DNA of 64,000 nt, from contig NZ_CP116615.1 of assembly GCF_024832785.1 (NCBI RefSeq), forward strand, positions 2,604,001 through 2,668,000, read 5' to 3'. The position numbers and the translations under genes were made by a program. Below are positions 45,473-54,444 of the stretch, piece by piece. The DNA comes from Fontisphaera persica. GTDB taxonomy: Bacteria > Verrucomicrobiota > Verrucomicrobiia > Limisphaerales > Fontisphaeraceae. The first letter of the stretch is position 1, and each line of letters starts with the position of its first letter. Under the pieces are notes generated by a model. The model saw only the letters and a list, made by a program, of their open reading frames with translations, was not told the DNA's origin and made no database searches.

Positions 45473-45985
45473 TCAACGCCGGTAGCGGGTGGTCTGCTCA
45501 TTCTCCAGGCGCGGGAGGGCGGTGATGCAATCCAGCTCGATGAACCGCTGCTCATGGCGCGCGGAGGAAAAGACAACGGTAAATTCATCACTGGTGCCGT
45601 TGGGATAGAAGCGGACGGGAGCGCTGGGGAACTCGCGGACGTCCACGAAATTCACTTCGAGGGCATCAATGCCCACGTTTTCGGGGACCACAAAGGAGCC
45701 TTTGCCGGGGGCCTCGAAAGCGCGGTCGCGGGGCCGGAGCATGAGGGTCTGGGTCTGGCCGGTGAGGATGGCCTGAGCGCGGGCGGCGTGGCAGGCTTCC
45801 ATCATGGCGGTGACGGAGGCGCGGAGGGCATCCTTTTCCGCGGCGCGAAAAATGGCGGGGATGCCGATGCCCACCACCAGGCCCATGATGGCGACCACAA
45901 TCATCAGCTCCACCAGGGTGAAGGCGCCCTGCCCTGCGGCGGCGGCAGGTCTGCGAGCCATGAAGGTGGGGGGGCCGGGGTTCAT
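45473..45985 (-). CDS. gspH: Type II secretion minor pseudopilin GspH-like
   Basis: A 170-aa protein with the prepilin motif GAFTLVELMIVVAIMGLVVGIGIP (about 20-43), followed by a GspH-like domain of beta-strands. The start overlaps the gspF stop by four bases (ATGA). It could equally be the major pseudopilin GspG, but the domain lacks the usual C-terminal GspG YP/Ca-binding motifs, which favours GspH. Confidence 0.75.
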   Translation of the reverse strand: MNPGPPTFMARRPAAAAGQGAFTLVELMIVVAIMGLVVGIGIPAIFRAAEKDALRASVTAMMEACHAARAQAILTGQTQTLMLRPRDRAFEAPGKGSFVVPENVGIDALEVNFVDVREFPSAPVRFYPNGTSDEFTVVFSSARHEQRFIELDCITALPRLENEQTTRYRR

Positions 45986-47277
45986 CCGCGTCCGATGCTG
46001 TTGGTGATTTCAAACATGGCGGAGAGGATGCTGAAGAGAAGGAGTCCCACGCCGACGGCCATGACGATAATCATGACCGGCTCAATCAAATTGGTCATGA
46101 CGCGCAGCGCCAGGCTCAGCTCGTTTTCGTAGGTGTCGGCGAGGTTGCGCAAGGCGCCGGGGACATCGCCGGTTTCCTCGCCGATTTTGATGAGGTCAAT
46201 CATCAACTGGGGGAAGACCTTGCTGCGGGCGAGCGGCTGGGCGAGGGTTTTGCCGTCGGTGACGGCCTCGCGGGTCTGGGCGATGGCCTCTTTAAGGACC
46301 TGGTTGGGGATGACCTGCTCGGTGATTTTGAGCGCGGTGAGCACCGGCACGCCGTTTTGCAGGAGAGTGGCCAGGACACGGGCGAATTGGGCGTAAAGAT
46401 TCAGGCGGAAAATCTGGCCGAAGACCGGGAGGCGGAGTTTCCAACTGTCCAACGCGCGGCGTCCGCCGGGAGAATTTTTGAAGCGCATGAACAGGACGGC
46501 GAGGGCGGAGATGACAATGCCGGTGATAACCCAGAAGCTGGGGCTGACCATCAAATCGCCCACCTGCATAAGAATCTGGGTGGGGCGCGGGAGGGGGACC
46601 TTGATGCCCTCGAAGATTTCTTTGAACTTCGGCAGCATGAAGGTCATGAAGAAGATGATGATACCGATGCCGACGAAGGTGACCACGGCGGGGTAAATGA
46701 GGGCGGAGACAAACTTGGCCTGAACTTCGGCAAAGCGGTGGTAATGTTCGGCGAGCCGGCGCAAGACGTCCACCAGGGCGCCGCTTTGCTCGCCAGCGCG
46801 CACCATGTTCACGTACATGTCGCTGAAAATCACCGGTTGACGGGCCATGGCATCGGACAGGCTGCGGCCCTCGGTCACATCCTGGCGCAACTGGCGGCTG
46901 ACGTCGGCGGGGATGCCCTTGCTCTCGAGGTGGGTCATGCTGTTGAGCGCCACGGTGAGCGGCATGCCGGAGTGCAGGAGGTTGGCCAGTTGCTGGGTGA
47001 AGGTGGCGATTTCCTGGAGTTTGGGGCGGCGCTGGCGGAAGAATAAATCGCGCAGCCCCGGCGGCAGGAGGGCGGCGGCGCCGGCAGCGGCGGGGGCCGA
47101 GGCGCCCTTGCGGGGGGCTTTGTCCACCACGACGCCGCCTTTGGGCTGGTCCACCATGACGGGCAGAAGGCCCAGGCGCTCGATTTGCGCCAGCGCTGCG
47201 GAGCGATCGGGCACATCCAACACGCCGGTAACCACCTCGCCGTTGCGGCGGCGGGCTTTGTAAGTAAATTGCGGCAT
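45982..47277 (-). CDS. gspF: Type II secretion / type IV pilus inner-membrane protein GspF
   Basis: A 431-aa polytopic protein with the duplicated T2SSF domain. PQFTYKARRRNGEVVTG opens it. TFTQQLANLLHSGMPL and FARVLATLLQNGVPVL are the paired motifs, with hydrophobic segments at about 205-230, 255-275 and 405-430. The ATG at 47277 gives the canonical N-terminus. It is the platform of the pseudopilus assembly. gspE, gspD and gspG are not in the window, so the rest of the system is elsewhere. Confidence 0.92.
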   Translation of the reverse strand: MPQFTYKARRRNGEVVTGVLDVPDRSAALAQIERLGLLPVMVDQPKGGVVVDKAPRKGASAPAAAGAAALLPPGLRDLFFRQRRPKLQEIATFTQQLANLLHSGMPLTVALNSMTHLESKGIPADVSRQLRQDVTEGRSLSDAMARQPVIFSDMYVNMVRAGEQSGALVDVLRRLAEHYHRFAEVQAKFVSALIYPAVVTFVGIGIIIFFMTFMLPKFKEIFEGIKVPLPRPTQILMQVGDLMVSPSFWVITGIVISALAVLFMRFKNSPGGRRALDSWKLRLPVFGQIFRLNLYAQFARVLATLLQNGVPVLTALKITEQVIPNQVLKEAIAQTREAVTDGKTLAQPLARSKVFPQLMIDLIKIGEETGDVPGALRNLADTYENELSLALRVMTNLIEPVMIIVMAVGVGLLLFSILSAMFEITNSIGRG

Positions 47278-47403
47278 AAGCAGCAACGCCAGTTTGCTTT
47301 AGTTGAATAACCCGTTCAAAGCCAAAAGTTGCTGGGAGGCAGGGGGGGAGGCTGACGCCGGGGCTGCTGAAGGGGGGCATGGCGGGGTGGCATGCTTCCC
47401 CGT

Positions 47404-47432
47404 TTGACTTGGGGCGCGGTTCTTTTTAATTT
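47404..47432 (+). promoter_or_regulatory. Putative promoter of the KS/KR/ACP operon
   Basis: TTGACT (47404-47409), a 17-base spacer and TAATTT (47427-47432), about 30 bases before the first start codon. It is the clearest sigma-70-like element in the gap between gspF and the ketosynthase gene. Confidence 0.5.
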
Positions 47433-47461
47433 GGCCGCGCCGTTGGGGCAATTTTTGAGGC

Positions 47462-48703
47462 GTGTTATTTCCGGCTGGCCAGAGCGGTGGAGCGGCGACC
47501 CGGGTGGTGATTACCGGGGCTGGCATCATTACCGCGCTGGGGCAGGGCTGGGCGGTGAATGCGGCGGGTTTTCGGCGCGGGCAGCCTGCGTTTCGCCCGG
47601 TCACCCTGTTTGATGTGTCGCGCCAGCGGGCCAAGGTGGCCGCGGAGGTCCACCTGCCCGAGAGCGAGCCTCCCCCCCAGATTCATCCGCATGAGTGGCG
47701 GCGGTGGGACCGTGCCAATCATCTGCTTTATCATGCCGCCCGTGAGGCGTGGACGCAGGCGGGCTGGGAGGCGGGGGGACCGGTGAGCATGGTGTTGGGC
47801 ACCACCAGCGCCGGAATGGCGCGGGGGGAGGAATATTTCCGGCAGGCGGTGGGGCAGCCGCAGGATTTTCGCGCGCAAGCGGGCCGCGGGCTGCATTATC
47901 AGGCGCAGCGGCAGGCGCTGAATGTACAGCGGGCTTTGGGATTTTATGGGCCGACGGTGTTCATCGCCAACGCCTGCGCCTCCGGCGCGAATGCGCTGGG
48001 CCATGCCTTTGATTTGATTCGGTGGGGGATGGCGGAGCGGGTGTTGGCGGGAGGGTATGATGCGTTGAGCCAGTTGGTGTTTTGTGGTTTTGATTCGCTG
48101 CAATCGCTCGCCCCGGTGCAATGCCGCCCCTTTGACCGGCGCCGGGATGGTCTGGCGCTGGGGGAGGGCGCGGGAGTGCTGGCCCTGGAAAGCGAGGCGC
48201 AGGCACGGCGGCGCGGGGCGGCAATTTTGGGAGAAATCGCCGGCTATGGGTCCTCCACCGATGCGCACCATCTGACGCAGCCGCATCCGGAAGGGGACGC
48301 GGCGTTGCGGGCGATGGTGGAGGCCACGGCCACGGCGGGCATTCGACCGGAGCAGGTGGGGTATCTCAACGCCCACGGGACGGGCACGCCCCTGAATGAC
48401 AGCGCGGAAGCGCGGGCCATTCAACGGTGGGCCGGGGCGGCGGAAAAAAGGCCGCGGGTCAGTTCGACCAAGGGCGTAATTGGGCATTTGTTGGGCGCGG
48501 CGGGGGCGGTGGAAGCCATCGTGTGCCTGATGGCGCTGCGGGAGCAATGGCTGCCGCCCAATGCCGGATGGGAAGAAGCGGACCCGGCGTGTGACCTGCC
48601 CCTCATCACCCATCCGCAAGAGGCGCGCGTGGATTACGCGCTGAGCAATTCGTTTGGCTTCGGGGGAGCGAATGCTTCCCTGATTCTGCGCCGATGGTCA
48701 TGA
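47462..48703 (+). CDS. Beta-ketoacyl-ACP synthase (KAS II/FabF-like)
   Basis: A 413-aa thiolase-fold condensing enzyme. The catalytic triad is intact: Cys in NACASGANALG (about residue 172), His in NAHGTGTPLND (about 305) and His in STKGVIGHLLGAAGAVEA (about 341). SFGFGGANASL near the C-terminus is also typical. It starts with GTG at 47462; a later GTG at 47504, just before VITGAG, is an alternative. It is the first gene of a unit with a Cys-less partner, a ketoreductase and an ACP, resembling a minimal type II FAS/PKS set. Confidence 0.88.
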   Translation: MLFPAGQSGGAATRVVITGAGIITALGQGWAVNAAGFRRGQPAFRPVTLFDVSRQRAKVAAEVHLPESEPPPQIHPHEWRRWDRANHLLYHAAREAWTQAGWEAGGPVSMVLGTTSAGMARGEEYFRQAVGQPQDFRAQAGRGLHYQAQRQALNVQRALGFYGPTVFIANACASGANALGHAFDLIRWGMAERVLAGGYDALSQLVFCGFDSLQSLAPVQCRPFDRRRDGLALGEGAGVLALESEAQARRRGAAILGEIAGYGSSTDAHHLTQPHPEGDAALRAMVEATATAGIRPEQVGYLNAHGTGTPLNDSAEARAIQRWAGAAEKRPRVSSTKGVIGHLLGAAGAVEAIVCLMALREQWLPPNAGWEEADPACDLPLITHPQEARVDYALSNSFGFGGANASLILRRWS

Positions 48704-49725
48704 GCAACCCGGGCATTTACGTGCAAGGCGTGGGCGCCGTCAGCCCGGCGGGATGGGGTGTGGCGGCCTTGCGGGAAGCGGTGCAGCGGGGTGAGCCTTT
48801 GCCCGTCAGCGCATTGGAGCGGCCCGGATGGAGCGGCGGTTTGGCCGCGCGCAAAGTGCCGCCCGCGCCGGTGCGTCCGGCGTTTATGGCGCATCCGCGT
48901 TTGCGGCGCGCGAGCAGCATCAGCCATTTCACGGTGGCGGCGGCGCTGGAGGCATTGGGCCATCCGACGCCTCCCTTTTCGGGCGAGGGGTTGGGCATCA
49001 TTTTTTGCACGATGGCCGGGCCGTTGAATTACACGCGGCGTTTTTTTGCCGAGGCGCTGAAGGACCCGGCCACCGCCAGCCCGATGTTGTTTCCCGAAAC
49101 GGTGCTCAATGCGCCTGCCAGTCATCTGGCGGCCCTGCTGGGGGTCATGGGGCCGGTTTATACGTTGATTGGGGATGACACGGCTTTTTTGTCGGGCCTG
49201 GCGCTGGCTGCGCAATGGTTGAGCGCGGGCCGGGTGGAGCGTTGTCTGGTGGTGGCGGCGGAGGAACTGGACTGGCTGCCAGCGGATGCCTTCCGCCTGT
49301 TTTTGCGGGGGCACATCGCCAGCGAAGGAGCGGGGGCGATTTTATTGAGCCGCCAAGCCCGGGGGCTCGGCGCCCAACTGGCGGGAGTGAGCGAGCCTTT
49401 CAACTACGCCCTGCCGGGCGGCGCCGCGGCAGCGATGCTACAGGCACGGCGGCAGGTGCAAGCCTGGGACGGACGGACGGCGTTGCTCTGCGACAGCCGG
49501 ATGCATTTGCCGCGGCATGACCGCGCGGAAAATCAGGCATGGCACGACTGGCCCGGGCGATGTTGGTCGCCGCGTCATGTGCTGGGCAATGCGCTGACGG
49601 CGGCCAGCGCCTGGCAGGCGGTGCTGGCGGCGGCGGCGGTCCCCCAGGAGGCGGTGACGGCGGCGGTGGTGAGCGTGGCCGGGTGCAATCATCAGGCCAT
49701 GACCGCCGTCTGGACGCCGGCGTGA
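48694..49725 (+). CDS. Ketosynthase-like protein lacking the active-site Cys (chain-length-factor-like)
   Basis: A 343-aa thiolase-fold protein, clearly related to ketosynthases (NAPASHLAALLGVMGPVYTL; HIASEGAGAILLS). At the position of the nucleophilic Cys it reads GDDTAFLSG, and the C-terminal region with the NAHGTG and GHxxGAAG His motifs is much shortened and altered (GNALTAASAW). This is the pattern of a KS-beta/CLF subunit that pairs with the active KS. It overlaps the KS gene by 10 bases; an alternative ATG lies two codons later. Product length control is inference from the family. Confidence 0.72.
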   Translation: MVMSNPGIYVQGVGAVSPAGWGVAALREAVQRGEPLPVSALERPGWSGGLAARKVPPAPVRPAFMAHPRLRRASSISHFTVAAALEALGHPTPPFSGEGLGIIFCTMAGPLNYTRRFFAEALKDPATASPMLFPETVLNAPASHLAALLGVMGPVYTLIGDDTAFLSGLALAAQWLSAGRVERCLVVAAEELDWLPADAFRLFLRGHIASEGAGAILLSRQARGLGAQLAGVSEPFNYALPGGAAAAMLQARRQVQAWDGRTALLCDSRMHLPRHDRAENQAWHDWPGRCWSPRHVLGNALTAASAWQAVLAAAAVPQEAVTAAVVSVAGCNHQAMTAVWTPA

Positions 49726-49780
49726 ACGATTTACAGTTGCCGCGCTGGTTGCGTTTCCGGCAGTATTTTCCCCCGTCATC

Positions 49781-50512
49781 ATGGAAGCGCGGGTCATTTG
49801 TATTACCGGCGGCAATGGCAGTCTGGGGCTGGCCATGGCGCGGGCGTTCTTGCAGGAATCGCCCGCCAATCAGATATGGCTGGGGGTGCGGCAGCAACGG
49901 GCGCAGGCGGAGAGTCTGTGCGCGGAGCATGCCGGGCGCTGCCATTGCGTGGAGCTGGAAGTCACTTCCGAGGCCTCCTGGAAACAGGCCCTGGCCACGG
50001 TGGAAAAGGCGGGCGGCCGGCTGGATGTGCTGGTGAATAATGCGGGGCGGCATCACGACATGCTGCTGGGGCAAATGCCCGTGGACGTCTGGCGGGAGAT
50101 TGTGCGGGTAAATCTGGAGGGGGTGTTTCTGGGGTGCCAGGCGGCGTTGCCATTGATGATAGCGCGGCGGCAGGGGCGGATTGTGAATATCGCCTCGCTC
50201 AGCGCCCTGCTGGCGCCGGCGGGCCAGACGAATTATGCGGCCGCCAAGGCCGGGGTGGTGGCGCTCACCCAGTCGCTGGCCAAGGAAGTGGCGCGCCTGG
50301 GCATCACGGTCAACGCGGTGTGCCCCGGATACATCGAGAGCGGCGAGCTGCTGCAACTGCCGGAAGCCGAGCGACAGGCGCGGGCGCGGCAGGTGCCGAT
50401 GCGGCGGTTTGGCCGGCCGGAGGAAGTGGCAGCGGCGGTGCGATTTTTGGCCAGCGCGGAGGCGGGTTATATTACGGGGGCGGTAATCAAGGTGGATGGA
50501 GGGATACTTTAA
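49781..50512 (+). CDS. fabG: 3-oxoacyl-ACP reductase (FabG-like SDR)
   Basis: A 243-aa short-chain dehydrogenase. The cofactor motif is TGGNGSLG, followed by VLVNNAGRHHDM and the catalytic Ser-Tyr-Lys in NIASLSALLAPAGQTNYAAAK. AVCPGYIES and the C-terminal GAVIKVDGG agree with FabG. It would reduce the 3-keto group made by the upstream KS pair. The stop codon shares a base with the ACP start (TAATG). Confidence 0.88.
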   Translation: MEARVICITGGNGSLGLAMARAFLQESPANQIWLGVRQQRAQAESLCAEHAGRCHCVELEVTSEASWKQALATVEKAGGRLDVLVNNAGRHHDMLLGQMPVDVWREIVRVNLEGVFLGCQAALPLMIARRQGRIVNIASLSALLAPAGQTNYAAAKAGVVALTQSLAKEVARLGITVNAVCPGYIESGELLQLPEAERQARARQVPMRRFGRPEEVAAAVRFLASAEAGYITGAVIKVDGGIL

Positions 50513-50784
50513 TGGACACGCAGGCAACCAAAGAACAAATCAAACAATTGATGGTGGAAAATCTGATGCTGCAGGTCAGCGCCGCGGAAATCGGCGATGA
50601 CCAGGCGCTGTTTGGCCCGGACAGTTTGGGGCTGGACAGTGTAGACGCCCTGCAGTTGGTGGTGATGTTGGACAAACATTTTGGCCTCAAAATTGCCGAC
50701 CCCGAAACGGCGCGGCGGGTGTTGCAAAACATCAACACGATGACGGAGGCCGTGCTGCAGGCCCGCCCCGGGAGCGGGAGCTGA
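50512..50784 (+). CDS. Acyl carrier protein
   Basis: A 90-aa acidic helical protein with the phosphopantetheine attachment Ser in GLDSVDALQLVV (about residue 43). The sequence before it, LFGPDSLGLDSVDAL, matches dedicated secondary-metabolism or lipid ACPs. It is translationally linked to the ketoreductase by TAATG. A C-terminal tail of about ten Gly/Ser/Pro residues is disordered. Confidence 0.9.
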   Translation: MDTQATKEQIKQLMVENLMLQVSAAEIGDDQALFGPDSLGLDSVDALQLVVMLDKHFGLKIADPETARRVLQNINTMTEAVLQARPGSGS

Positions 50785-50884
50785 GGGGGCGGCAGCCGGC
50801 GCGGTGAAAACAAGACTTGCCGGGCTGGCGGCTTTGTTGTGGAATGATTCAAGCCTGCAAGATAGAGTGGCTTTGAGTTGTATT

Positions 50885-52282
50885 ATGCCTGAGAAAACCA
50901 TCAACGAAATCCCGCCCGCTGTGCGCGAGATTTTTGAAAAGGGCAAGGTGGCCCTGCAACGCAACATTCTGGATTACGCTTTCATTCATTTCGAGCAGGT
51001 GCTGGCCCGCGAACCCGGCTTTTACGAGTGCCGCGAGCTGCTGCGGGCGGCGCAGTTCAAAAAGGCGGGCGCCAAATCGGGGCTGTTCAAGAAGGTGATT
51101 GGCGCGGCGAGCTCGCAGCCGATGGTGGCCAAGGCGCAACTGGCGATGCGCAAGGACCCCATCGAGGCAATCGCCATTGCGGAGCAAATCCTCAGCAATG
51201 ATCCCCACAACTCCGCCGCGCACCGGGTGCTGGCGGAGGCGGCGCTGGCGGCCGACTTTCCCCGGACGGCCATTCTGTCCCTGGAAATACTGGCCAAGGC
51301 CGCGCCCAAGGACCGGGCGTTGAAGCTGCAACTGGCCGAGGCCTACCAGCGCATCCACCAGATTGCCAAGGCGGAGGCCATCTACAGCGAGATGTTGAAG
51401 GCCAATCCCAACGATGCGGAGGTGGCGCAGGCCTATAAGAATCTTTCGGCGCGGCGGACGCTGGATGAAACCGGTTTTGGCGCGCTGGCCGATGGACAGG
51501 GCAGCTACCGGGATGTGCTCAAGGACAAGGAAGAGGCGGTGGCCCTGGAGCAGGAGAACCGGCAGGTCAAGACGGAGGATGTGGCCACGCAGCTCATCCG
51601 GGAGAAAGAGGAGCGGCTGGCGCGGGAGCCGAACAATTTGAAAGTGCTGCGGGACCTGGCGGAGCTGCACGCGCAGAAGAAGGATTTCGACAAGGCGCTG
51701 GAATATTACGAGCGCATCCGCAATTCTGAAGCGGGGGCGGATCCATCGCTGGAGAAGGCGATTGCCGACACCACGTTGAAGCGCTTTGATTTTCTGCTGG
51801 AGTCGCTGGACCCCAACATTCCGGAGCAGGCGCAGCAAATCGCGCAACTGCAGGCGCAGAAGCAGGAGTTTCAGTTGAACGACGCGCGGCAGCGGGTGGA
51901 GAAGTATCCGACGGATTTGCAACTGCGCTTCGAGCTGGGGGTGCTCTATTTCAACGCGGGCAAGATCAGCGAGGCGATCCAGGAATTTCAGAAGGCGCAG
52001 AACAATCCGGCGCGGCGGATTGCGGCGATGAGCTACCTGGCGCAGTGCTTTGCGAAGCGGGGGATGAATGACCTGGCCGCGCGGAAATTCCAGGAGGCGC
52101 TGAAGGAGAAGGTCACGTTCGATGACGAAAAGAAGGAGTTGTTGTACGCGCTGGGTTGTGTGCTGGAGAAGATGGGGAAAAAGGAAGAGGCCATCGAGCA
52201 GTTCAAGCTCATCTACGAGGCGGACATTGGCTACAAGGATGTGGCGGCCAAGGTGGACGCCTATTATTCGAGCCAGGGTTGA
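50885..52282 (+). CDS. Tetratricopeptide-repeat protein
   Basis: A 465-aa soluble protein built of TPR-like helix pairs: ALQRNILDYAFIHFEQVLAREP near the start, AIAEQILSNDPHNSAAHRVLAEAAL, LAEAYQRIHQIAKAEAIYSEML, LAELHAQKKDFDKALEYYERI, ELGVLYFNAGKISEAIQEFQKA and GCVLEKMGKKEEAIEQFKLIY. The central 220-260 stretch is charged and may be a coiled coil. A GTG start 27 codons upstream is possible; the ATG at 50885 is preferred. It lies between the ACP and squalene-hopene cyclase genes and may be a scaffold; its role is unknown. Confidence 0.8.
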   Translation: MPEKTINEIPPAVREIFEKGKVALQRNILDYAFIHFEQVLAREPGFYECRELLRAAQFKKAGAKSGLFKKVIGAASSQPMVAKAQLAMRKDPIEAIAIAEQILSNDPHNSAAHRVLAEAALAADFPRTAILSLEILAKAAPKDRALKLQLAEAYQRIHQIAKAEAIYSEMLKANPNDAEVAQAYKNLSARRTLDETGFGALADGQGSYRDVLKDKEEAVALEQENRQVKTEDVATQLIREKEERLAREPNNLKVLRDLAELHAQKKDFDKALEYYERIRNSEAGADPSLEKAIADTTLKRFDFLLESLDPNIPEQAQQIAQLQAQKQEFQLNDARQRVEKYPTDLQLRFELGVLYFNAGKISEAIQEFQKAQNNPARRIAAMSYLAQCFAKRGMNDLAARKFQEALKEKVTFDDEKKELLYALGCVLEKMGKKEEAIEQFKLIYEADIGYKDVAAKVDAYYSSQG

Positions 52283-52389: not shown

Positions 52390-54444
52390 ATGTCGCGCAA
52401 CACAACGACGGACGGGAAACAGACCGCCCTCCGGGAGGAATCCCAAGCATACCGGTCGGTAAACGCGCTGCACCAAGCCATTGCGCGTTCGCAGCAATAC
52501 CTGCTGAGCCAGCAGCGGGAGGGCTGCTATTGGATTGGTGAGCTGATGGTGGATGTCACCCTGGTGGCGGACATGGTGGCTTATCATCACTGGAACGGCA
52601 AGGTGGACCGCGAGTGGCAGCGCAAGGCGGTCAATCACATCTTTTCGCTGCAACTGCCCGAGGGCGGCTGGAATATTTATTACGGCGGCCCCTCGGAGGT
52701 GAATGCCACCATCAAGGCCTACCTGGCGTTGAAACTGGCCGGGGTGCCCATCACGGACCCCCGGATGCTGAAGGCGCGCGAGATTGCCAAGAACCTCGGC
52801 GGCGTGCCGCGCATGAACACGTTTTCCAAGCTCTATCTGGCGCTGCTGGGGTTGTATCCCTGGAAGTACGTGCCCACCATCCCCTGCGAGGTCATCCTGC
52901 TGGGCAAGTGGTTTCACGTGAATTTCCACGACATGAGCAACTGGACGCGCGCGATGCTCGTGCCGCTGGCCATCATCAATCATTTCAAGCCGACGCGCCG
53001 GCCCAATCCGCCGGTCACGCTGGATGAATTGTATCCCGACGGTTACAAGGAGCACGAGCTGGCCCTGGCGCCGGACCCGAAGCTTTTTAGCTGGCGCAAT
53101 TTCTTTTTGTGGCTGGACAAGCTGCACAAGTTTGCCGAGCTGTGGGCGCAGGCGGGCATTCACCCCTTCCGGCGGACGGCGCTCAAACGCGCGGAAAAAT
53201 GGATGCTGGAGCGCTTCGAGGGCAGCGACGGACTGGCGGCCATTTTCCCGGCCATGCTCAATTCGCTCATTGCGCTGAAGGCGCTGGGCTATCCGGAGGA
53301 TCACCCGGAGGTAATTCGCGCCGAGCGGGAGTTGAAGAAACTGGAGCACGAGGAAAAGGACAGCGTGCGGATTGAGCCGTGTTTGTCACCGGTGTGGGAC
53401 ACGGCCATCACGCTGATTGCCCTGCGGGAGTCCGGCGTGCCGGCGGATCATCCGCAGGTGGTGGCGGCGACGCGCTGGCTGCTGGATCGCGAAATCCGTT
53501 TTCGCGGCGACTGGGTGCACAAGAATCCGGCGCCGGTGGAGCCGAGCGGGTGGGTGTTTGAGTTTAACAACAAGTGGAATCCGGACGTGGACGATACGGC
53601 GATGGTGCTGCTGGCGCTGCGCCTGACGCCCACCGATGACCCTAAACGGCGGGACGAGGCCTACCGGCGGGGGTACCGTTGGATGTTATCGTTCCAATGC
53701 AAGGATGGCGGTTGGGCGGCGTTTGACAAGGATTGCACCAAGAGTGTGCTGACGAAGGTGCCGTTTGCGGATCACAATGCGATGCTGGATCCGGAATGCG
53801 CGGACATCACGGCCCGTATTCTGGAGGTGATGGGCAAGGAAAACTGCCCGCTGGATGACCCGCAGGTGGTGCGGGCGCTCGAGTACTTGAAGAAGGAGCA
53901 GCAACCGGACGGCTCATGGTTTGGGCGGTGGGGGGTCAATTACATCTACGGCACGTGGCAGACGCTCCGGGGGCTGGCCACGTTGAAGTATCCCATGAAT
54001 GAACCGTGGCTGTTGCGCGCGCGGGACTGGCTGGAAAGTGTGCAGCACGAGGATGGCGGCTGGGGCGAGCGGTGCAATACTTATGATGACCCGGTGTTCA
54101 AGGGGCAAGGCCCCAGCACGGCGTCGCAAACGGCGTGGGCGTTGATGGGGCTGCTGGCCTTTGGCGACCCCGACCGCCCGAGCATCCGGCGGGGGGTGGA
54201 GTATCTCATTCGCACGCAAAATCCGGACGGCTCGTGGTCCGAAGAGGAGACCACCGGCACGGGTTTCCCGCAGGTGTTTTATCTGAAGTACGACATGTAC
54301 CGCAACAACTGGCCGCTGCTGGCGCTGGCGGAGTACAAAAAGCTGCTCGAAGCCAAAGCTGCCGGCAAAGGGCCCAATGGACGCGAGCATCCTGAGTTTC
54401 GGGCGGCGGACGCCGTGGCGCCCCAGGCCAGCCGGCGTGTTTAA
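52390..54444 (+). CDS. shc: Squalene-hopene cyclase
   Basis: A 684-aa membrane-associated class II triterpene cyclase converting squalene to hopene. The catalytic DxDD motif is DVDDTAM (about residues 398-404). Several QW repeats are visible, e.g. QLPEGGWNIYYGGP, FQCKDGGWAAFD, QQPDGSWFGRWGVNY and QHEDGGWGE. The length is family-normal. It starts 107 bp after the TPR gene; an inverted repeat (TTTCCGCGC, 52303-52348) lies in that gap. The TAA stop overlaps that of the convergent gene within TTAA. Confidence 0.95.
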   Translation: MSRNTTTDGKQTALREESQAYRSVNALHQAIARSQQYLLSQQREGCYWIGELMVDVTLVADMVAYHHWNGKVDREWQRKAVNHIFSLQLPEGGWNIYYGGPSEVNATIKAYLALKLAGVPITDPRMLKAREIAKNLGGVPRMNTFSKLYLALLGLYPWKYVPTIPCEVILLGKWFHVNFHDMSNWTRAMLVPLAIINHFKPTRRPNPPVTLDELYPDGYKEHELALAPDPKLFSWRNFFLWLDKLHKFAELWAQAGIHPFRRTALKRAEKWMLERFEGSDGLAAIFPAMLNSLIALKALGYPEDHPEVIRAERELKKLEHEEKDSVRIEPCLSPVWDTAITLIALRESGVPADHPQVVAATRWLLDREIRFRGDWVHKNPAPVEPSGWVFEFNNKWNPDVDDTAMVLLALRLTPTDDPKRRDEAYRRGYRWMLSFQCKDGGWAAFDKDCTKSVLTKVPFADHNAMLDPECADITARILEVMGKENCPLDDPQVVRALEYLKKEQQPDGSWFGRWGVNYIYGTWQTLRGLATLKYPMNEPWLLRARDWLESVQHEDGGWGERCNTYDDPVFKGQGPSTASQTAWALMGLLAFGDPDRPSIRRGVEYLIRTQNPDGSWSEEETTGTGFPQVFYLKYDMYRNNWPLLALAEYKKLLEAKAAGKGPNGREHPEFRAADAVAPQASRRV

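Follow-up and report, generated by a model that had tools for sequence, protein, structure and literature searches.

A dispersed ketosynthase and chain-length-factor cassette in Fontisphaera persica as the putative core of a polyunsaturated acyl chain pathway in Verrucomicrobiota

What is made by a gene cassette that carries a ketosynthase, a second ketosynthase-like protein, a reductase and a carrier protein, and that sits apart from any dehydratase or tailoring gene? This question is raised by a locus of Fontisphaera persica, whose genome consists of a single 4.73 Mb contig. We analysed a stretch of 64,000 nucleotides of this contig (the window, positions 2,604,001-2,668,000), in which four genes on the forward strand encode a ketosynthase (KS, 47462..48703, 413 aa with a GTG start), a chain-length-factor-like KS partner (CLF, 48694..49725, 343 aa), a FabG-type SDR ketoreductase (KR, 49781..50512, 243 aa) and a dedicated acyl carrier protein (ACP, 50512..50784) with the phosphopantetheine motif GLDSVDAL, which was read by eye. 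The answer that we favour, as probable though well short of certain, is that the cassette forms the elongation core of a type II polyketide or fatty acid synthase (PKS/FAS) of the highly reducing kind, which would supply an envelope lipid with a polyunsaturated acyl chain, while its dehydratase and tailoring genes are scattered over the chromosome.

The four genes are tightly packed, as a preliminary description of this DNA had proposed and as was borne out over 47462-50784. The start of the CLF gene overlaps the end of the KS gene by 10 bp, the KR gene begins 55 bp after the CLF gene, and the KR stop and the ACP start overlap (TAATG). All four products match Pfam and NCBIfam families, with the CLF match limited to the N-terminal half of the protein. 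A genome of the same genus keeps the four genes, with KS, CLF, KR and ACP at 82, 74, 86 and 90% identity, and given this conservation, together with that across the order, the cassette is not a chance arrangement. The single promoter that had been proposed ahead of the operon was not recovered: a scan of 5.2 kb for sigma-70-like promoters, which is a weak test, gave one match against 1.0 expected and none upstream of the KS gene.

The KS is not the housekeeping FabF of this bacterium. Against the FabF equivalog model TIGR03150 it reaches 349.3 bits, below the cut-off of 493.75, and a separate true FabF on the same chromosome scores 633.7 bits. Alignment to E. coli FabF showed that Cys, His, Lys and His are all present in the window KS, so that its catalytic residues are intact as previously described, and the same holds for all 75 KSs aligned, the window KS included. 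In a tree of 26 cassette KSs (that of the window and 25 others) and references comprising FabF, ApeO and ApeR of E. coli, the Thermus and Acetoanaerobium FabFs, the FabF and a third KS of the F. persica genome itself, Streptomyces and Rhizobium KSs and chain B of PDB entry 9S5H, the cassette KSs formed one clade with support of 100/100, which is restricted to Verrucomicrobiota as sampled, and all FabFs fell outside it. The approximately unbiased (AU) test rejected a grouping of this clade with the genome's own FabF (p 0.0066), and did not quite reject one clade of the cassette KSs with all four FabFs in the tree (p 0.055). The score and the own-FabF test together rule out a housekeeping FabF identity of the KS, and the cassette is not a housekeeping FAS. 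The preliminary description had singled out two outcomes that would speak against it, a KS placed within housekeeping FabF and no conserved association of the genes; what was found is a KS clade of its own and a retained linkage of KS and CLF.

The deeper grouping of the KS clade received no supported placement with APE (aryl polyene), NodE-like, highly reducing PKS or 9S5H sequences. A position beside ApeO has support of only 68/40, and AU tests gave p 0.09 for a grouping with 9S5H chain B and p 0.18 for one with the genome's third KS. Chain B of 9S5H itself groups with the Streptomyces KSs (90/74, and 94/92 in a second tree), outside the cassette KS clade. The third KS is a stand-alone protein encoded at 4,222,021-4,223,259 on the reverse strand of the chromosome (L039:8022-9260); it is 38% identical to the window KS and reaches the cut-off of no NCBIfam model listed.

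The partner protein lacks the residues of a condensing enzyme. Where FabF has Cys, His, Lys and His, the residues of the window CLF are Asp, Ser, Arg and Asn, and the catalytic Cys is found in none of 79 CLFs (the window CLF included, and one having an alignment gap at this site). An AlphaFold2 model of the window CLF with a pLDDT of 93 predicts a complete KS fold. In a Foldseek search with this model the best matches were FabF proteins and the CLF of ishigamide biosynthesis, chains of the latter taking ranks 2, 3 and 5, and in the CLF structure search VIA Z was 36-37 in all of the best 50 matches listed. The model speaks for the fold and not for the function of the protein. Within the genus, the neighbouring TPR protein and squalene-hopene cyclase are 97% and 93% identical while the adjoining CLF is at 74%; the CLF evolves much faster than these two.

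At three further positions, 328, 333 and 342, the window CLF reads Arg-Asn-Gln, and the CLF of the same-genus genome likewise has Arg and Asn. In the family as a whole, Glu333 and Gln342 are present in 67 of 79 CLFs and the complete Lys-Glu-Gln in 49 of 79. In sequence comparisons with the PDB, 9S5H/9S5I ranked first with the CLF and second with the KS. Chain C of 9S5H carries Val163, Lys328, Glu333 and Gln342, and because these residues fit those of Kuste3606 in Table 2 of PMC2649909, the two entries probably represent an anammox pair. A literature search on 9S5H/9S5I gave no paper, and they were absent among the best 50 matches listed for each structure search.

No gene marks the cassette more specifically than that of the CLF, and its distribution was followed across the phylum. 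A CLF at E<=1e-30 was present in 24 of the 58 genomes of the order, F. persica among them, and in 24 of 387 genomes sampled across the phylum, all of one class, in a search that scored at most five candidates per genome. Scanning of named genomes yielded 174 relatives; the best 80 were retained as named loci, in which gene matches were called by tblastn at E<=1e-6. The titles of 73 of these refer to groups of Verrucomicrobiota, 23 of them to Limisphaerales, Pedosphaera or subdivision 3; the remainder are five labelled only as "bacterium", one Betaproteobacteria and one Acidobacteria, of which the last two are perhaps misbinned. The KS stands beside the CLF in 79 of the 80 loci, and the 80th ends at a contig edge. 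An ACP was found in 62 and a KR in 52 of the 80. Of the 40 loci whose sequence extends 8 kb or more upstream of the CLF and 2 kb or more downstream, 25 had both KR and ACP, seven the ACP only, two the KR only and six neither. In none of the 1292 plasmid records that matched the KS did the best site reach 60% identity, and identity was at most 42% among the matches listed.

The preliminary description had held that dehydratase and tailoring genes are absent, which stands for this locus and fails for the chromosome: they are scattered and not missing, and some relatives keep them beside the cassette. The linkage counts in the 80 loci are rough, given crude gene calling and many contigs that end near the cassette, and each family was named from one representative. 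With these reservations, the most frequent neighbours are a glycosyltransferase GT2 (33/80, three of them at 29-35% identity), a HydE/PylB-like radical S-adenosylmethionine (SAM) enzyme (27/80; e.g. L056:6523-7617) and an AMP-ligase (24/80). Two families of halogenase-like flavoproteins are linked in 16 (five at 27-28%) and 14 of the loci. A B12-dependent radical SAM enzyme similar to a TIGR04072 protein (B12-rSAM1, at least 51% identity), a second B12 radical SAM enzyme (rSAM2, four at 34-39%) and an MMPL exporter/LPLAT acyltransferase are each linked in 12 of 80. In some relatives, e.g. L079 and L059, the B12 radical SAM, second radical SAM, KS and CLF genes are contiguous in this order. Unbiased clustering added a CrtI/phytoene-desaturase-like flavoprotein (8/80), a UbiE-like methyltransferase (7/80), another methyltransferase (5/80), LolA (5/80) and a family of 620 aa (7/80).

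Several linked families stand somewhat apart. The member of the HydE/PylB-like family that was scanned falls short of the cut-off in all NCBIfam models listed and might represent a new radical-SAM subfamily. A 133-aa protein, C20, is linked in 20 and a small secreted protein in 16 of the 80 loci; the C20 member scanned had no Pfam match at E 0.1. A protein family of about 261 aa (e.g. L121:5200-5985) is linked in 13 loci, with no Pfam or NCBIfam match in the member scanned, and one further linked family showed a sub-threshold PepSY match only, again in one member scanned.

In F. persica itself, counterparts of several of these genes are present at a distance from the window. A FabZ-like dehydratase is encoded at genome positions 3,737,615-3,738,088 and is 63% identical to the cluster-linked dehydratase of L056, to which the housekeeping LpxC-FabZ shows just 32%. 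A stand-alone acyl-AMP ligase lies at 397,360-398,652 (52%), a lauroyl-acyltransferase-like LPLAT at 2,170,878-2,171,795 (47%), an HpnN/MMPL-type exporter at 4,461,078-4,464,011, and a B12 radical SAM protein of the "ladderane-type" family TIGR04072 at 4,086,662-4,088,128, whose score of 400 bits exceeds the cut-off of 360. A literature search on the name TIGR04072 gave no paper. The scattered genes also stand apart from one another in the stretches of 17-20 kb that were examined.

Co-occurrence in the 58 genomes of the order ties the ligase and the dehydratase to the CLF, as judged by Fisher tests that ignore phylogeny. CLF and ligase were both present in 19 genomes, the CLF only in five, the ligase only in three and neither in 31 (p 4.6e-8); for the dehydratase the corresponding numbers were 19, five, four and 30 (p 2.6e-7), and with one genome per family p was 2.1e-7 for the ligase and 1.6e-7 for the dehydratase. 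Three genomes (G010, G030 and G055) have ligase and dehydratase and no CLF at E<=1e-30, and may hold a diverged one. As a separate observation, a genome of the same family contains an open reading frame of 2296 aa in which four hot-dog matches of FabA type were found (G002:C173:10013-12184), possibly a subunit of a polyunsaturated fatty acid synthase.

We propose the following route, in which the heterodimer, the polyene product, the envelope destination and the step assigned to each scattered enzyme are inferred. A heterodimer of KS and CLF would carry out the condensation of malonyl units on the dedicated ACP, with the chain length set by the CLF. Each beta-keto group would be reduced by the KR, and the distant FabZ-like dehydratase would leave double bonds, giving a polyene or polyunsaturated acyl chain. 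The stand-alone acyl-AMP ligase might supply or recycle a starter acid, and the B12 radical-SAM enzyme of the "ladderane" family might modify the chain. Its attachment to a lipid and the export of that lipid to the envelope would then fall to the lauroyl-acyltransferase-like enzyme and the HpnN/MMPL-type exporter. The earlier suggestion of an unusual lipid or polyene-like chain holds insofar as the cassette is a minimal type II FAS/PKS that differs from the housekeeping set and is conserved as a unit, and the polyene or lipid product is plausible.

Several points weigh against this proposal. The parts occupy six separate chromosome sites, so that their joint function is deduced from linkage and co-occurrence in other genomes, and the statistics of the latter take no account of descent. 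The exporter match is weak, at 35%, and a FabZ-like dehydratase is linked to the cassette in only 10 of the 80 loci, one at 35%. Joint presence of TIGR04072 and the CLF fell short of significance (both 5, CLF only 19, TIGR04072 only 1, neither 33; p 0.072). The F. persica genome yielded no orthologue of rSAM2, of the HydE-like radical SAM enzyme or of the CrtI-like flavoprotein (E<=1e-20 for the last), and the pathway is known here from its genes.

Among other explanations, the cassette could be an ordinary second elongation set that makes saturated or hydroxy acids, e.g. for lipid A or storage. Its KR and ACP are as similar to FabG and AcpP as to their APE counterparts, and the operon lacks a dehydratase, both as such a set would have it; the KS clade, however, stands apart from FabF, and ligase and dehydratase co-occur with the CLF. 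Housekeeping FAS is not known to include a CLF partner, and we regard this explanation as improbable. Slightly less credible still is a decaying relic, in which a former cluster was broken up, two radical-SAM genes were lost and the CLF is diverging. The dispersal of the genes, the loss of the CLF residue signature in both genomes of the genus and a CLF that is merely 74% identical between them would all fit decay, whereas the four cassette open reading frames, the ligase, the dehydratase and rSAM1 are open in both of these genomes.

A third alternative comes from the genes downstream, where the preliminary description had placed a TPR protein and a squalene-hopene cyclase (SHC) and had considered an acyl modifier of hopanoids as product. 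Both genes are there on the same strand, the TPR-repeat protein at 50804..52282 and the SHC at 52390..54444, the latter scoring 717 bits where its equivalog cut-off is 431; the SHC gene starts 1.6 kb past the ACP gene and does so likewise in the same-genus genome, which is what a hopanoid link would predict. The four-gene order next to shc did not recur outside the genus in the loci examined: neither SHC, TPR nor the upstream GspF gene had a match in any of the 80 named loci, which reach at least 3 kb past the CLF in 62 cases and at least 5 kb in 50, and of the order-level loci examined, none but that of the same-genus genome has any of them next to the cassette; there all three are present. 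Because of this distribution, the SHC neighbourhood most likely arose by accident at the level of the genus, with local co-regulation as the most that it could reflect, and the SHC and TPR proteins are probably not part of the pathway. The hopanoid association is rejected, and a hopanoid modifier as the product of the cassette, which these loci do not support, is extremely improbable. On the other side of the cassette, a secretion or pilus gene of GspF type (45982-47286, reverse strand) runs divergently, with pilin-like open reading frames beyond it. For isolated KS-CLF-KR-ACP operons in this phylum, these results suggest looking for a scattered dehydratase, ligase, acyltransferase and exporter, and not for a hopanoid link.

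How, then, does the highly reducing type II PKS/FAS that we favour compare with known systems? The logic of KS, CLF, KR, dehydratase and ACP is that of ishigamide biosynthesis with Iga11/Iga12, and the fold of the window CLF is close to that of the ishigamide CLF (PDB 6KXD; 6KXE chain B). The window holds a KS with Cys-His-Lys-His, an adjacent Cys-less CLF with a KS fold, and a dedicated KR and ACP. For the dehydratase expected of such systems, the chromosome has an unlinked orthologue of the cluster-linked enzyme (with the CLF in 19/58 genomes, one of the two alone in nine, neither in 30). Two Streptomyces plasmid clusters, L182 and L183, were classed here as highly reducing type II PKS by gene content. 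The two Streptomyces type II CLFs that were checked differ from the window CLF in having Lys, His333 and Asn342 and in keeping His298, and the window KS shows limited identity to the proteins of L182, 30-32% for the two stand-alone KS/CLF proteins and 41% for the fused KS.

The likeness to APE clusters is broader. Taking cluster apeA-R of E. coli CFT073 as reference, with provisional ape letters for some of its genes, KS, CLF, KR, dehydratase and ACP classes are common to both systems, and the AMP-ligase, GT2, LPLAT, MMPL, LolA and FabZ-like dehydratase of the relatives belong to the same accessory classes. One GT2 of the relatives is 33% identical to ApeJ, the ligase and MMPL proteins match weakly, and one halogenase-like flavoprotein accompanies the cassette in 14 of the 80 loci; in F. 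persica, the ligase, LPLAT and MMPL homologues are dispersed, and GT2 and LolA were observed in the relatives' loci. Roles for the ligase, acyltransferases and exporter as given above follow proposals in the available text of PMC8253772, and polyene formation by a KS-CLF pair is described for ApeO-ApeC in that of PMC8358021. A true APE pathway would have the AMP-ligase load an aromatic starter and the chain become an aryl polyene anchored in the outer membrane. Against this, APE CLFs are of half length (240 aa in CFT073, 239 aa in PDB 6QSP) while the window CLF has 343 aa and a full KS fold. APE clusters contain two ACPs and a second KS (ApeR) where the window locus has one ACP and one KS, the third KS of the genome being 1.57 Mb away. 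The relatives' clusters carry radical-SAM genes, whereas the annotation of the E. coli APE cluster shows none, the parts are dispersed in F. persica, and the placement of the KS clade next to ApeO is unsupported. The cassette is APE-like in outline and not formally APE, and we consider a true APE pathway unlikely.

The comparison with anammox bacteria concerns the radical-SAM enzymes. According to the available text of Rattray et al. 2009 (PMC2649909), FASII clusters of Kuenenia stuttgartiensis contain KS paralogues that lack the active Cys, along with radical-SAM enzymes, phytoene-dehydrogenase-like genes, a CoA ligase, a methyltransferase and a glycosyltransferase, and a table lists Lys328, Glu333 and Gln342 for Kuste3606 and Kuste2805. 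Javidpour et al. 2016 (PMC4790861), in the text available, place kuste2803 (SAM radical), kuste2804 (FabF) and kuste2805 (non-canonical FabB) in one cluster. The contiguous B12-rSAM1, rSAM2, KS and CLF of some relatives recall kuste2803-2805 with their radical-SAM protein, KS and Cys-less partner, the Glu333/Gln342 pair of these Kuenenia proteins recurs in the CLF family, the relatives' clusters contain ligase, glycosyltransferase, CrtI-like and UbiE-like genes, and the TIGR04072 protein of F. persica, though unlinked, exceeds its cut-off. It could thus be supposed that a ladderane-type pathway exists outside anammox bacteria, in which B12 radical-SAM enzymes cyclise or remodel the chain to give a strained-ring or radical-derived lipid. 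The window CLF itself has Asn at 333 and fails the Lys328/Glu333/Gln342 test, however, and F. persica has rSAM1 only, unlinked, with neither rSAM2 nor the CrtI-like enzyme detected. The KS was compared with an anammox KS through 9S5H chain B, whose source is presumed, and sisterhood of the two was neither supported nor rejected. Ladderanes were known only from anammox bacteria as of 2020 according to the text available of PMC7298704, and expression of the Kuenenia genes in E. coli produced none according to that of PMC4790861. We consider such a ladderane-type pathway improbable for this cassette. Distinctly unlikely as well, if a little less so, is the wider proposition that Limisphaerales and other Verrucomicrobiota contain a pathway for radical-SAM-modified polyene lipids whose KS/CLF logic and B12 radical-SAM enzymes are common with the anammox ladderane pathway; if true, it would offer a genetically simpler, perhaps cultivable relative of the ladderane pathway, and possibly ring-containing or radical-remodelled membrane lipids outside anammox bacteria.

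Clusters of this kind in the phylum are already in print as antiSMASH "ladderane" and arylpolyene calls. The available text of PMC7298704 reports predicted ladderane clusters in Verrucomicrobia that may serve unknown functions, that of PMC8692599 reports arylpolyene and ladderane clusters in Verrucomicrobiota, with Pedosphaerales among the most prolific orders, and a literature search lists it and PMC10667739 as naming both ladderane and Pedosphaera. The first two reports cover the same phylum, PMC8692599 including Pedosphaerales, and probably describe the same gene family as the cassette; as far as their available text goes, they remain at catalogue level and do not dissect gene content or the CLF. 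Ladderane biosynthesis is an open question, and anammox bacteria had neither pure culture nor genetics in 2009 (PMC2649909, text available). A non-anammox KS-CLF family that shares, at family level, a B12 radical-SAM partner and CLF residues with the anammox clusters represents a place to test the shared enzymes. Taken together, the cassette formally belongs to neither the APE nor the anammox ladderane clusters; it is the probable core of a highly reducing type II PKS/FAS pathway that occurs mainly in Verrucomicrobiota, is dispersed in F. persica and has parts in common with each of the two.

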